NCBI RefSeq assembly: GCF_003217325.1 | Contig: NZ_QJTI01000008.1 | Location: forward strand, 1-44,287 | DNA length: 44,287 nucleotides | DNA from: Rhodopseudomonas faecalis | Lineage (GTDB): Bacteria > Pseudomonadota > Alphaproteobacteria > Rhizobiales > Xanthobacteraceae | Direction: 5' to 3' | Part shown: positions 27,246-37,836 of the stretch, one piece after another | Layout: each line of letters opens with the position of its first letter | Position numbering within the stretch: position 1 is the first letter of the stretch | The notes under the pieces: model-generated | What the model saw: only the letters and a program-made list of their open reading frames with translations | Told to the model about the DNA's origin: nothing | The model's database searches: none | Made by a program: the position numbers and the translations under genes

Positions 27246-27494
27246 CCCGGTGGTCAGCACCAGATGAACCGAGGTGTGGGCGAGCAGCGGCAACGCCCAG
27301 CCGGTCTTGCGGTCCTTGCCGAGTGCCATCCAGGAATTTTGCAGCAGGAAGTCGGCGGCGACATGCTTGATGGTCAGCAGCACCATCCACCAAACCAACG
27401 CGCCGACGGCGACCGACGACGACATGGCTGGAAACGACAACGGCTCTGGAAACGACAACGGCAGCCCCTGTGATGCCGCGACAAGGCTCGTCAT
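27036..27494 (-). CDS. DUF3307-family membrane protein
   Basis: About 152 residues if started at ATG 27494; 27587 and 27425 are also possible and none has a strong ribosome-binding site. The core [21 protein letters not shown] and the later [11 protein letters not shown] and [17 protein letters not shown] segments identify the DUF3307 family, a three- to four-helix inner-membrane protein of unknown function. The last 210 bases overlap the extension of nhaA on the other strand. Near the N terminus an 18-base tandem repeat (27429-27446 and 27447-27464) encodes two copies of PLSFPE/A. Confidence 0.8.
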
Positions 27495-31921: not shown

Positions 31922-33796
31922 TCACTGCAGCACCATCACATCGTTATCGGGATGATCGGCATAAAGCCGCTCGACCAGAGCGGCGCGGCGTTCCAGCCCG
32001 GCGCGCTGATTGATGTAGCCCTTGTCAGTCAGCTCATTGCCGTCGATCGACGGCGGCTCGACCATCAGCATCACGCGCGCAATGCGCATCGAGCTCGCGC
32101 CCTCCACCTCGGCATTGTGAGCCTGCAGCCCCTGACGCAGCTTTTCGAGCACCGCCGGATGTTTGACGACATCCTCAAAACTGGCATTAGGGTTGCCGAC
32201 GATCTGCCGGCAGGCTTGCAGATTGGGCCAGGCCAGCAGCGCCACATAAGGCCGGTCCTGACCGGCGACCAGCGCATCCTGAATCACCGGCGAGGCCGCG
32301 GCGATCACATCGGTGCGCAGCGAGCCGACATGGACGAAAGTGCCGGTCATCAGCTTGAAATCCTCGGCAACCCGGCCGGCGAACACGATGCCCTGCTGCG
32401 GGTCCTGCGGATCGAGTAGCACGCCGGCATCGCCGATCTTATAAAACCCCTCCTCGTCAAACGCCGCCGCGGTGAGATCGGGGCGCTGATAGTAACCGGG
32501 CATGACGTGAATGCCGCGCAGCCGCAATTCGTATTTGTCGCCGATCGGCACCATCTTCAATTCGACGCCGGGGAATGGCAGCCCGATCAGGCCGACGCGC
32601 TCCGTGTCCCAATAGGTGCCGGTCGAGGTCGGCGCGGTCTCGGTCGAGCCCCAGCCAGTGTAGAACACGATGCGCTCGCCGGTGGCGCGCACCGCCAGCG
32701 CCTGCATGCGCTCATAGAGGTCGTCCGGCAGCCGCGCGCCGCCATAGGCCATCATGCCAAGATCCTTGAAGAAGGTGCGGCACAGCGCGTCGTCCTTCTC
32801 CATCGCCGCGGCGAGCGCCGCATAGCCGGCCGGCACATTGGCGTAATAGGTCGGCGAGATTTCCCGCAAGTTACGCAAGGTCTCGTCGAACATGCCCGGC
32901 AGCGGCCGGCCATCGTCGATATAGAGCGTGCCGCCCTCGGCAAGCGCGGGGTTGAACAGCGCGTTGCCACCCATGGTGTGATTCCACGGCATCCAATCGA
33001 GCAGCACCGGCGGCGGCTCGGAAGGATCGCGCGGCCGCACCTGGGTCATCATGGTGACGTTGGCGCACATCATGCGCTGGGTGTTGATCACCGCTTTTGG
33101 CATGCCGGTCGAGCCGGAGGTGAACAGCAATTTGCCAACCGTGTCCGGCGTGATCGCGGCGATCGACTGCGCAACCTCGTCGGTGACCGGCGTTGCTGCC
33201 AGCTCGGCAAACGACACGCTGTCGATGCCCTGCGGCGGGCTCGCGACATGCACCACCTTGACGCCGGTGAGATCGAGCGCCTGCAAGGCGCGGCCGAACA
33301 GAGCGCCGTCCTGCACCAGCACCAGAGCCGGCTTCACCAGCTCGAACAGATATTTCAGCTTCTGATGATCATGGCTCATCAGCGAATAGGCCGGCGACAT
33401 CGGCGCCGCCGGAATCCGGGCCTGCATCGCCGCCATGGTCATCAGCGCGTGTTCGATCGAATTGCCGGACAGGATCGCGATCGGACGGTCCGCTTCCAGT
33501 TTCAGATTGAGCAGCGCCTGGGTGAGCGCATCGACGGTGTGCTTGGCTTCAGCGTAGGACACTTTGCGCCATTGCCGCTCCGGGCCGCTGCGCTGCGCCA
33601 GCCAAATCCGCTGCGGCGCCTGCTCCGCCCAGCGCGCCAGCAGCGCCGGAATGTGCCGCTCATAGGGCTCGAGCGGCTGGTTCGATTTCAGCACCAGGCT
33701 GCCATCGGCGCGGCGATCAACCGCGATGTCGCGCGGCAGCCAGTTGATTTTGCGGAATGGCGGTTGGTCGAGGACTCGGGCCGCGCTCGATGTCAT
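31922..33796 (-). CDS. Feruloyl-CoA synthase-like acyl-CoA ligase, copy 2
   Basis: AMP-forming CoA ligase of 624 residues, clearly paralogous to the 21023-22894 gene over its full length but well diverged. The P-loop LFTSGSTGMPKAV lies near residues 222-234, with WGSTETAPTSTGTYW and EGFYKIGDAG later. It probably activates an aromatic or alicyclic acid. ATG 33796 has GAGGGAG upstream. It lies between the truncated dehydrogenase and the 3-hydroxyacyl-CoA dehydrogenase, so the surrounding genes would supply the later beta-oxidation steps. Confidence 0.86.
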   Translation of the reverse strand: MTSSAARVLDQPPFRKINWLPRDIAVDRRADGSLVLKSNQPLEPYERHIPALLARWAEQAPQRIWLAQRSGPERQWRKVSYAEAKHTVDALTQALLNLKLEADRPIAILSGNSIEHALMTMAAMQARIPAAPMSPAYSLMSHDHQKLKYLFELVKPALVLVQDGALFGRALQALDLTGVKVVHVASPPQGIDSVSFAELAATPVTDEVAQSIAAITPDTVGKLLFTSGSTGMPKAVINTQRMMCANVTMMTQVRPRDPSEPPPVLLDWMPWNHTMGGNALFNPALAEGGTLYIDDGRPLPGMFDETLRNLREISPTYYANVPAGYAALAAAMEKDDALCRTFFKDLGMMAYGGARLPDDLYERMQALAVRATGERIVFYTGWGSTETAPTSTGTYWDTERVGLIGLPFPGVELKMVPIGDKYELRLRGIHVMPGYYQRPDLTAAAFDEEGFYKIGDAGVLLDPQDPQQGIVFAGRVAEDFKLMTGTFVHVGSLRTDVIAAASPVIQDALVAGQDRPYVALLAWPNLQACRQIVGNPNASFEDVVKHPAVLEKLRQGLQAHNAEVEGASSMRIARVMLMVEPPSIDGNELTDKGYINQRAGLERRAALVERLYADHPDNDVMVLQ

Positions 33797-34298
33797 GGTC
33801 GTCTCCCTCTAAAATGATGGTCTCTTGCTGGACCGTGTTGTTCAGTGCCGAGTGTCGCCTCGCCGGCTGGCTTGGCAACCGCGCTGTCATTCAAATTCCC
33901 GCCACCACCGCCTTGGTTCCTGAACGCAGCAACGCGCCGCCGCAGGCGTCGCGGCGCCCGCTGGTCGGCGGTTCAATGATGGCGGATGGTGGCATCAAAA
34001 GTGCCCGGCGATGGGCGCGAGGCAGCGGGGCAAAGCGTCGGCAATGCGCTCGGCCGGGGCGACATGGCTGCCCCCGGGACACGCGCTCATGGTGTTGGTT
34101 CGGCCGAAACGCCGCCACGCCTTTTCTCCCGTGTCGTTTCCTTTGGCAGCGCCGCCTTGTGGCGGTCTTGCTTGCCCCTCACGCCGATGGCGTCAGGTCG
34201 AAATCGGGTGCGGCCGGTGCGCCGAGCGGCAGGCTGACGCCGCCCGGCGCTGGCCGGTCGCCGCTCTCCGCAAAGAGAGCGGCAGGCTCGGCCGGTTA
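33797..34298. other. 502-base gap without a recognised gene
   Basis: Between the second ligase and the 3-hydroxyacyl-CoA dehydrogenase. Frames of 75 to 181 codons exist on both strands but show no family character, no ribosome-binding site and a composition typical of GC-rich non-coding DNA. The only structure I can name is the hairpin CCGCTCTC (34261-34268) / GAGAGCGG (34275-34282), 16 bases after the dehydrogenase stop on the minus strand; it has no T run, so at best a weak terminator or RNA 3' stabiliser. Confidence 0.6.
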
Positions 34299-35057
34299 TT
34301 AGCGCGGCGCCATCCGGATCGCGCCGTCGAGACGAATGGTCTCGCCGTTCAGCATCGGATTTTCCACGATCTGCACCGCGAGCGCGGCGTATTCCGACGG
34401 ATCGCCGAGCCGCGCCGGATGCGGCACCTGCGCGCCGAGGCTCTTGCGCGCCTCTTCCGGCAGGCCCATCAGCAGCGGCGTCAGGAACAGGCCGGGGGCG
34501 ATGGTCATGACGCGGATGTTCATCGAGGCGAGATCGCGCGCCACCGGCAGCGTCATGCCGACAATGCCACCCTTGGACGCCGAATAGGCCGCCTGCCCGA
34601 TCTGGCCGTCATAGGCCGCAACGCTGGCGGTGTTGATGAACACGCCGCGCTCCTCGCCAATGGTCGGCGCGCTCTGCATGCGCTCGGCAACCAGACGGAT
34701 GCAGTTGAAGGTGCCGATCAGATTGACCTTGACGACATGGGCGAACAGATCGAGCGAATGCGCGCCGTTCTTGCTGACCGTCTTCACCGCGCTGCCGATG
34801 CCGGCGCAGTTGACCAGCACCCGCACCACGCCATGCGCGGCCTCGGCCTTGTCGATCGCTTCCTTGACCGAGGCTTCATTGGAGACGTCGCCGACGCAGG
34901 CCACGCCGCCGATCTCGGCCGCGACCTTCTCGGCATTGTCCTTGTTCATGTCGAACACCGCGACCTTGGCGCCCTTGGCGGCCATCGCCCGCGCCGTGGC
35001 GGCACCCAGGCCCGAACCTCCGCCGGTGATGAGCACGGAGACGTCTTGCAACTGCAT
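34299..35057 (-). CDS. Short-chain 3-hydroxyacyl-CoA dehydrogenase (HSD10-like)
   Basis: 252-residue SDR. The NAD-binding GGGSGLG is at residues 12-18, VLVNCAGIG near 81-89, the catalytic serine in [10 protein letters not shown] and the Tyr-x-x-x-Lys pair in [26 protein letters not shown] and the end [16 protein letters not shown] are typical of the type II 3-hydroxyacyl-CoA dehydrogenase / 2-methyl-3-hydroxybutyryl-CoA dehydrogenase group. It would oxidise 3-hydroxyacyl-CoA with NAD+. AAAGG lies nine bases before ATG 35057. Its 5' side is the repeat-hairpin region at 35173-35829, so its mRNA probably has a long leader. Confidence 0.9.
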
Positions 35058-35172
35058 CGTGAACTACCTTTCTTGAGCATGCCGGAGCTCAGAGGCCCCG
35101 TGTTGACGGCCTTCGAGGCTGGACGTCAGGTGTCCCCCCGTTGATCTCGCCTCGAAACCTTGATGGTGTTTG

Positions 35173-35829
35173 TGGCTTGCAGCCAGCGACCTGTGGCCTG
35201 GTCCTTGGGCGTTTCCCGAGTCTTGTTGATTCTTGTGTTCTCGAAGGTCTTGGAGTCGTGGGCCGCAGTCCCGGTCCAGGCGGGCCTGCTGCAAAAACGG
35301 TGCGTCGTATTCGCTGCTGCGCTCGACAAACTCCTTGGGCGTTTCCGTTAGCTCGTCTTGGTTGTCGTTATTATCGTTAGCCGAACTTGCAGAACTGGCA
35401 CGGCCGCTTGCGCGGCCGTGCCCTTGGGCGTTTCCTGATTCCTCACCCACTCTGACGGCGGGCTATGTGAGGACCTTTCGTTGCGGTTCGTCTTGGCAGA
35501 CGATACCGGGCGTCGATGACATCGACTGTTTTGGACCTTGGGTGTTTCCCCGTTTTTTCTTGCGCCGGCGAGTTGATCGCCTTGTTCGTTGGTGTCGTCT
35601 TGGGTGGCGGCCTTGTTGTTGTCGTTGGCTTACCGGTCCAATCCGAAAATTCGTTTCCTTGGGCGTTTCCGTAACTGATCTTTCGACTGTTGCAGTCCGT
35701 TTCCTTGGGCGTTTCCTGCGTCTTGTTTCTCGAAGTCTGCGCTTCTTGAAATGAGTTCCTTGGGCGTTTCCGTATCTTTGCTGACGGCTTCTTATCTGAA
35801 GCCTTTCAAACTGGTCCTTGGGCGTTTCC
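35173..35829 (-). repeat. Eight-copy 14-base repeat array alternating with hairpins in the leader of the SDR gene
   Basis: The 790-base gap 35058-35847 has no credible gene. On the minus strand it holds GGAAACGCCCAAGG at 35829-35816, 35771-35758, 35716-35703, 35670-35657, 35549-35536 (one change, CACCC), 35435-35422, 35346-35333 and 35216-35203. Start-to-start distances are 58, 55, 46, 121, 114, 89 and 130. The spacers share no sequence, but most fold: stems at 35786-35803 (GGCTTC/GAAGCC), 35726-35751, 35685-35697 (GACTG/CAGTC), 35567-35581 (GGCGA/TCGCC), 35512-35526 (GTCGAT/ATCGAC), 35488-35503 (TCGTCT/AGACGA), 35397-35422 (11-base-pair GGCACGGCCGC stem) and 35173-35185 (TGGCT/AGCCA). The spacer at 35217-35332 folds less clearly. 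The first copy is 19 bases after the tetR stop. Confidence 0.9.
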
Positions 35830-35847
35830 TGTTATCGTTCGCGGTCT

Positions 35848-36516
35848 TTAGGCCGGCGCTGTCGAAGGTGCTGACGACGTCAATATGCCGTGGAGAATGA
35901 GGTTCTCCATGTGCTGAATGTAGTCGCGACAGACCTGATCGGTGACCGGGCCGATGCCGATGGCACGCGCCATGGTGTGGCGACCGAAAAACAGATGATC
36001 ACAAGCGCCGATCAGGCTGGTGTAGAACAGCACCGGGTCGATCGGGCGGAATTCGCCGGTGGCCACGCCTTCCGCCAGCAGACGGCGGTGGAAATCGAGC
36101 AGCGGGCCGACAAAGAACTTCGACACTTCGTTGGCTGCCTCATTGCCGTTTTCATGCAGCAAATAGTGGATCAGCCGGTTCATGTAGGGGAACTGGTAAT
36201 AGGTCCGGATGATGCCGGCGATGTGCAGCCGCATCTTCTGCGTGGCGGACATCGGCTGCGCCATCAGGATTTCGAGATTGACCATCTCGGCGGCGGCGTC
36301 GCGCTCCAGCAGCGCCAGCAGCAGGCCATCCTTGTTGCCGAAGTGATACTTCACCAGGGCGGCGTTGACGCCAGCCTTATGCGCGATGTCGCTCAGCGAG
36401 ACATCGATCGAATTGCGCTCAATCATCAGCTCCCCGGCCGCGACCAACAACTTGTCGGCGGTCGAGTTCTTGCCAGCGGCGTGCCGATGAGGGGCGATGG
36501 TATTCAGGTGCAGCAT
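35848..36516 (-). CDS. TetR-family transcriptional regulator
   Basis: 222 residues. The N-terminal helix-turn-helix covers about residues 20-65 (KLLVAAGELM..VSLSDIAHKAGVNAALVKYHFGNKDGLLLALL), with the standard VKYHFGNKDGLL motif; the C-terminal ligand-binding domain follows. It is divergent from the thiolase gene, and an imperfect palindrome lies between them, so it probably represses that gene and itself in response to an acyl-CoA. The SDR gene lies 790 bases downstream on the same strand, beyond the repeat array. ATG 36516 has only GGAATC upstream. Confidence 0.9.
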   Translation of the reverse strand: MLHLNTIAPHRHAAGKNSTADKLLVAAGELMIERNSIDVSLSDIAHKAGVNAALVKYHFGNKDGLLLALLERDAAAEMVNLEILMAQPMSATQKMRLHIAGIIRTYYQFPYMNRLIHYLLHENGNEAANEVSKFFVGPLLDFHRRLLAEGVATGEFRPIDPVLFYTSLIGACDHLFFGRHTMARAIGIGPVTDQVCRDYIQHMENLILHGILTSSAPSTAPA

Positions 36517-36579
36517 CCCGATTCCAGGCAGTTTCAGCCTGACTTGCAGATACTACGAGGTTGACGGCGATTTCAAGAG

Positions 36580-36619
36580 TTAATTGACCGATTGACTAAA
36601 CTGTCAACCGACCGTTTAA
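36580..36619. promoter_or_regulatory. Candidate TetR operator between tetR and thiolase genes
   Basis: TTAATTGACCGATTGAC (36580-36596) and GTCAACCGACCGTTTAA (36603-36619) form an inverted repeat with 12 of 17 positions complementary, separated by TAAACT. The AT-rich composition in this GC-rich window and the divergent position fit an operator/promoter. A minus-strand TTGACA (within the right arm) followed 17 bases later by ATTAAC is a possible tetR promoter that the operator would overlap. Confidence 0.55.
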
Positions 36620-36663
36620 TCCGGCCGCTTTTCAGCCCAAACAACAACAAGGGAGATACCCCC

Positions 36664-37836
<1,173 letters not shown>

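Follow-up and report, generated by a model that had tools for sequence, protein, structure and literature searches.

Sponges and mRNA traps are already known kinds of regulatory RNA. CsrB and RsmZ are sponges of the protein CsrA, with many short repeated sites per RNA, and animal microRNA sponges such as ciRS-7 carry many sites for one small RNA on each transcript. Other examples act on bacterial small RNAs (sRNAs). CrfA of Caulobacter crescentus is a proven sponge of SisA-D, which belong to the alphaR8 family (PMC12559287), and the chbBC intergenic mRNA of E. coli is a trap of ChiX that promotes ChiX decay (PMC7815308). In S. meliloti, the alphaR8 RNA MmgR lowers polyhydroxybutyrate (PMC8401924).

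Here, we analyzed a window of 44,287 nucleotides from Rhodopseudomonas faecalis, in which the leader between a tetR gene and a short-chain dehydrogenase (SDR) gene carries a repeated motif. We think it rather likely that the eight tandem copies in the tetR-SDR mRNA leader capture alphaR8, a conserved Hfq-class small RNA, and that the array acts as a trap or sponge. It resembles CrfA in the pairing of an RNA with alphaR8 sRNAs as an antagonist and in its carbon metabolism setting, but CrfA is a separate small RNA with a G/A-rich second stem-loop facing the UUUCCUCCCU core (PMC12559287), whereas the window array consists of eight sites in an mRNA leader facing CCUUGGGCGUUUCC. In chbBC, too, an intergenic region of an mRNA sponges an sRNA; no array is described in the accessible part of that source (PMC7815308), whereas the window leader has eight tandem copies. 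Ordinary SisA target mRNAs are comparable to relatives of the window locus, where a site lies over the ribosome-binding region (PMC12559287). Unlike those targets, the window species has no copy at the ribosome site, and its eight upstream copies face mostly another part of alphaR8. The array shares repeated short sites in one RNA with CsrB and RsmZ, which, however, bind CsrA, a protein found in 0 of 16 genomes of the genus. With ciRS-7 it shares many sites for one small RNA, but the window case is a bacterial mRNA leader and a putative sponge. In the open-licence literature that we searched, no tandem array of sites for a single sRNA, here with up to ten copies, was found in a bacterial mRNA leader.

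The features of the locus are as follows.

31922..33796, minus strand: acyl-CoA synthetase
34299..35057, minus strand: SDR gene, 3-hydroxyacyl-CoA / 3-oxoacyl dehydrogenase-like (Pfam adh_short; below the cut-off of each listed NCBIfam model)
35058..35847, minus strand: tetR-SDR intergenic leader with the array, 790 nt
35816..35829, minus strand: alphaR8 antisense site 1 (GGAAACGCCCAAGG, exact)
35758..35771, minus strand: alphaR8 antisense site 2 (exact)
35703..35716, minus strand: alphaR8 antisense site 3 (exact)
35657..35670, minus strand: alphaR8 antisense site 4 (exact)
35536..35549, minus strand: alphaR8 antisense site 5 (one mismatch, GGAAACACCCAAGG; exact in sister genome G089)
35422..35435, minus strand: alphaR8 antisense site 6 (exact)
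35333..35346, minus strand: alphaR8 antisense site 7 (exact)
35203..35216, minus strand: alphaR8 antisense site 8 (exact; ends 145 nt upstream of the SDR start)
35397..35422: perfect hairpin of 10 bp within the spacer, or 11 bp when the final base of site 6 is included
35058..35080, minus strand: SDR ribosome-binding region, site missing in the window species
35848..36516, minus strand: TetR-family regulator (TetR_N, TetR_C_9), ending 18 nt upstream of site 1
36664..37836, plus strand: acetyl-CoA acyltransferase (thiolase), divergent from tetR

The preliminary description had the gene order and strands right (tetR 35848-36516 and SDR 34299-35057, both minus), and its claim of eight copies in one orientation on the SDR strand, seven of them exact, was borne out by our motif search. 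All eight copies of GGAAACGCCCAAGG lie between 35203 and 35829 on the minus strand, which is the SDR-coding strand, and one has a single mismatch. The copy-to-copy pitches of 58, 55, 46, 121, 114, 89, and 130 are also as it stated. Allowing up to two mismatches, the 790-nt leader holds 8 copies against a dinucleotide-shuffle mean of 0.023 (maximum 2, 300 shuffles); over the whole window, with up to three mismatches, there are 16 matches against a shuffle mean of 4.78 (maximum 10, 100 shuffles). The copies are distributed over all three reading frames, and we rejected a peptide repeat or hidden peptide because the copies do not keep to one frame, in agreement with the earlier view that this is not a peptide motif. 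An Rfam covariance-model search of 33800-36700 gave 0 matches at E<=1, and a search of 34900-36700 for sigma-70-like promoters found 0 against 0.3 expected. In a plasmid collection, the matches listed (10 of 406 records) cover the SDR-coding part only. Elsewhere in the window, two GGAAACGACAACGG copies, motif-like with three mismatches, lie 18 nt apart at 27430-27461. Between tetR and the divergent thiolase gene, we noted by eye an inverted repeat, TTGAC-N6-GTCAA, at 36592-36607, which is a candidate TetR operator.

The reverse complement of the array motif is exactly CCUUGGGCGUUUCC, which forms the heart of alphaR8 (MmgR / SisA / Rfam suhB, RF00519). In the window genome, the exact 14-mer occurs at nine places: the seven exact array copies plus a single place on each of contigs C15 and C21; one mismatch adds three more places, one of which is the fifth array copy. 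The places on C15 and C21 are alphaR8 genes (Rfam suhB/mmgR RF00519, 66.6 and 72.3 bits). Both genes read ...CCTTGGGCGTTTCCTCCCTAGACTT..., and therefore the array is antisense to alphaR8: the small RNA containing CCUUGGGCGUUUCC that the preliminary description proposed to look for is alphaR8/MmgR, present in two copies. Seven of the eight window copies are complementary to the alphaR8 core at 14/14 nt, and the antisense sites lie in the leader while alphaR8 itself is encoded elsewhere, on C15 and C21. Pseudo-copies of an alphaR8 gene were rejected, as the window copies share the 14 nt and an adjacent base or two with alphaR8 but not the rest. Of 248 family genomes, 240 contain the exact 14-mer, and alphaR8 is present at 8 of the 11 14-mer loci checked with Rfam. 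Within L036 (1489-2499, genome G084), three tandem alphaR8 genes lie within about 1 kb, and several other genomes of group g23 show a similar spacing of the 14-mer itself.

Mapped onto the Rfam model of alphaR8, the motif lies opposite its first weak hairpin (part of the loop, and the 3' arm) and opposite the start of its single-stranded core. Among the alphaR8 sequences seen, this 14-nt stretch showed no variation against which covariation of the sites could be judged. The window sites reach only UUUCC, the first five bases of the published pairing seed UUUCCUCCCU. Predicted pairing with alphaR8 amounts to -27 to -40 kcal/mol per window site, as raw values with flanks included. From sequence, pairing between the sites and alphaR8 is well supported as a prediction. 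An Hfq gene is encoded in the window genome. The window leader has 0 ARN-type Hfq runs against a shuffle mean of 12.8, and G089 has none either; five other leaders of the genus carry more of them than nearly all shuffles, and the signal is weaker in three more. We gave these runs no weight as support.

We next compare the same locus in relatives, where g1 genomes are taken as Rhodopseudomonas, g25 as Bradyrhizobium, and g26 as Afipia (names inferred). The SDR gene was found at E<=1e-105 in 84 of 248 family genomes, giving 85 loci, and 63 of these with tetR directly upstream were kept for leader counts. The other 22 had no tetR directly upstream, or a gap of >1000; in 21 of them (g26, g43, g45), no site was present in the 1140-1527 nt searched, and the remaining one, a locus of the genus (L125) whose contig ends at 252 nt, has two sites. 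All 16 genus genomes have the SDR gene, and all 16 leaders have at least two copies in one orientation (<=3 mismatches), whereas 12 paralogous SDR loci have no copies. Among the 63 leaders, 52 have at least one site, 35 have at least two, and 46 have a site 24-45 nt upstream of the SDR start. Sites number 3-8 in g1 (15/15 leaders), 6 and 10 in the two g6 leaders, 8 in the single g46 leader, 1-4 in g27 (17/17 leaders, at least two in 16), and 1-2 in g20 (2/2); exactly one is present in 15 of 17 g25 leaders, and none in g40 (0/7) and g17 (0/2). The tetR-SDR gap of leaders with sites ranges from 54-89 nt (g25) up to 859 nt (g46), and gap length tracks site number over all 63 leaders (Spearman 0.85). 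When 14-mer tiles of alphaR8 were matched to the leaders (<=2 mismatches), matches were concentrated on one stretch: the tile CCTTGGGCGTTTCC gave 153 antisense matches over 61 of 63 leaders, a sum that leaves out two g20 leaders, and 0 sense-copy matches in all 63. The motif is thus kept in relatives, a point that the preliminary description had set out to be checked, as a graded series at the same tetR-SDR locus. With one to ten sites in related species, this natural series allows direct tests of dose, of site number, and of how a target turns into a sponge.

A tree of tetR does not resolve the order of site gain, and site losses in g25 are possible. In this tree, the window species and G089 group with G046 of another genus (L119, L120, L182; support 96/94) and apart from the other members of their own genus, which may reflect long branches or gene transfer. 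Just 3' of tetR, related CGAATAG / CTATTCGC-type elements were seen by eye in several g25 loci and one g20 locus (L235, L236, L237, L242, L245, L259, L266).

The copy nearest the SDR start is at the ribosome-binding site in most relatives, with its own AAGG or AAAGG just after it as the usual likely Shine-Dalgarno sequence. In g25, the site, mostly a single one, overlaps the SDR ribosome-binding site, and 12 of 17 leaders carry it in an extended form with 21-23 of 25 nt antisense to the alphaR8 core (e.g. AAGTCTAGAGAAGAAACGCCCAAGGAAAGG); the other five have 11-18 of 25 nt, and shuffled leaders reach at most 18. The best g25 sites span the UUUCCUCCCU seed with two mismatches. Of 381 family genomes, 45, all of them g25, contain a 25-nt pattern of this type (with C or T allowed at one position), against 0 for its reversed control; the 8 of these genomes that are among the 85 loci have it at the SDR start. 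On sequence grounds, nothing speaks more strongly for alphaR8 as the probable partner than this independent extension across the remainder of its core. Within the genus, the SDR ribosome-binding region holds a site (<=2 mismatches, e.g. GCGCCCAAGGAAAGG) in 11 of the 14 genomes other than the window species and G089, and 10 of the 15 genus leaders within the 63 have such a copy at the same threshold; L122, L129, and L131 have more degenerate copies, seen by eye. The window species and G089 have no ribosome-site copy, and read CAAGAAAGGTAGTTCACG-ATG where other genus members have CAAGAAAGCGCCCAAGGAAAGGGATATCCA-ATG.

We infer transcription through the leader, pairing in the cell, a sponge effect, and its physiology along the following lines. 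In the ancestral state, a single alphaR8 site would have lain across the SDR Shine-Dalgarno sequence, with alphaR8 blocking translation; upstream copies would then have been added as the leader lengthened, and in the window species the ribosome-site copy would have been lost and the eight upstream copies kept. The comparison suggests that the ribosome-site target came first and the upstream copies later. When tetR-SDR is transcribed, the leader would titrate alphaR8, and perhaps send it to decay, which would free both the other targets of alphaR8 and SDR itself from repression. Control of the downstream SDR gene by alphaR8 is plausible because the last site in relatives covers the ribosome-binding site, a copy that is missing in the window species. 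A broader reading, which we hold to be about evenly balanced, is that the leader is a bacterial counterpart of multi-site microRNA sponges that evolved stepwise, titrates alphaR8 when the fatty-acyl/TetR operon is on, and so resets the carbon-storage network. As part of that same reading, the array would give alphaR8 a second pairing face (CCUUGGGCG) besides the known UUUCCUCCCU seed. The array could explain the conservation of the CUUGGGCG part of alphaR8, which lies outside the accepted seed, and would tie alphaR8 to fatty-acyl-CoA metabolism beside the known effect on polyhydroxybutyrate. If the broader reading is true, acyl-CoA degradation would reset the alphaR8 carbon-storage network.

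The main rival to a trap is repression in cis, in which alphaR8 on several leader sites represses SDR, by RNase E recruitment or by blocking the ribosome site, without meaningful titration. We regard this as possible but clearly the less likely account. It draws on the site that most leaders have at or next to the SDR ribosome site, which in 15 of 17 g25 leaders is the only one, and several sites could add up in repression. However, the window species and G089 have lost that copy while their eight upstream copies stay near perfect, sites that end at least 145 nt upstream cannot block the start directly, and eight sites would seem to exceed the need of cis repression. For the window species, the loss of the ribosome-site copy alongside eight retained, near-perfect upstream sites makes a trap the simplest reading.

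Alternatively, alphaR8 binding might activate or protect the message, for instance by shielding a long untranslated leader from RNase E or from Rho-dependent termination. Leaders are up to 859 nt long, and the window spacers are A/C-rich and T-poor (A 0.32, C 0.29, G 0.26, T 0.14). Yet C is barely above G in the window, so that no clear rut-like bias is present, and repression is the better fit to the ribosome-site copy seen in relatives; we consider activation or protection improbable. Still less probable is a transcript of the plus strand in which eight copies of the alphaR8 core mimic alphaR8. We found an excess of terminator-like stems in 34900-36700 (10, some overlapping, against 2.6 expected), most of which (7) lie on the plus strand. 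Against this, the copies do not have the CUCCC part of the alphaR8 seed, 33800-36700 has no Rfam match at E<=1, and the relatives' motif lies over the SDR ribosome site in the sense orientation, with a reverse-orientation site (<=2 mismatches) in 0 of 85 leaders.

If the copies were instead bound by a protein (CsrA, the neighbouring TetR, or some other DNA or RNA binder) and matched alphaR8 by coincidence, this would account for a repeated asymmetric motif beside a tetR gene, and its CAAGGA resembles a CsrA core, but we find this hardly credible given the 14/14-nt match to alphaR8 (up to 23 of 25 in g25), the copy at the Shine-Dalgarno position in 46 of 63 leaders, and the result for CsrA, the only protein candidate tested, which was found in 0 of 16 genus genomes (control genomes 3/14 positive). 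The preliminary description had proposed a multi-site target or sponge for either a small RNA or an RNA-binding protein; the small-RNA branch gained from the alphaR8 match, and the protein branch is the weaker one, since CsrA was not found in the 16 genus genomes and the full 14 nt match the sRNA.

The putative capture sites are generally better conserved than the spacers between them. This holds at p<0.05, uncorrected, in 10 of 14 ordered pairwise leader comparisons (for example, 0.95 in sites and 0.59 in spacers for G198 and G237); the other 4 were not significant, including the closest pair (p 0.35). The comparison leans toward conservation, since pairs were chosen, sites were picked in one sequence, and the motifs anchor the alignment. 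Substitutions in 114 upstream sites show no clear leaning towards changes that preserve pairing as G:U (31 of 141); among the other 110, G to A at positions 1-2 accounts for 45. The window sites are more accessible than the leader median in 8/8 cases with 8-nt windows and 6/8 with 14-nt windows, and site accessibility is ordinary in most of ten other leaders tested.

Hairpins had been described in most spacers, and this is partly so. Three of the seven inter-copy spacers fold clearly better than shuffles (35772-35815, z -3.6; 35436-35535, z -3.2; 35347-35421, z -3.5), whereas four are not more stable than shuffles (z -1.0, -1.3, -0.8, and +1.0); the whole-leader fold has a z of -2.2 against 40 shuffles. 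The hairpin described as 11 bp reaches that length only by counting the last base of the copy at 35422; its 10 bp within the spacer were reached in 0 of 300 shuffles. Compensatory change, proposed earlier as a check, was not seen in this hairpin: G089 has one pair broken and uncompensated, as judged by eye. The idea of structured, hairpin-bearing spacers is weakly supported.

Finally, we searched for the motif beyond this locus. A strict triple-array pattern matched 2 of 397 genomes of the whole order, the window genome and G026 (at its tetR-SDR locus); its backwards control also matched 2 of 397 (G248, G340), and therefore the count alone shows nothing. The strict spacing of this pattern misses most arrays known from the 85-locus comparison. 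An 11-nt pattern at the ribosome sites of the 16 genus genomes was found in 3 (one of them an alphaR8 gene) against 12 for the backwards control, and this search gave no further target common to the genus genomes and no shared regulon. In one genus genome (G223, L277), ACGCCCAAGGA lies at ribosome-site distance upstream of a metallo-beta-lactamase-superfamily gene. The exact motif stands 2-14 nt upstream of an ATG at 26 places in 25 of 248 genomes, against 0 for the control. Ten of the 26 read AAGGAGGGC, as in alphaR8 genes, and are probably alphaR8 genes with a chance ATG; five are g27 SDR ribosome sites, and in g40 (L194) the motif stands once ahead of a gene for an AMP-binding acyl-CoA synthetase. 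A motif copy also lies just upstream of an AMP-binding gene in g20 (L176). Four more of the 26, all in g23 (L195-L198), stand before zinc-ribbon genes of one kind (MPVYEYxCDxCGDFT-like; Pfam Zn_ribbon_8 in L195), which we take to be FmdB, and this gene is a probable further target of alphaR8.
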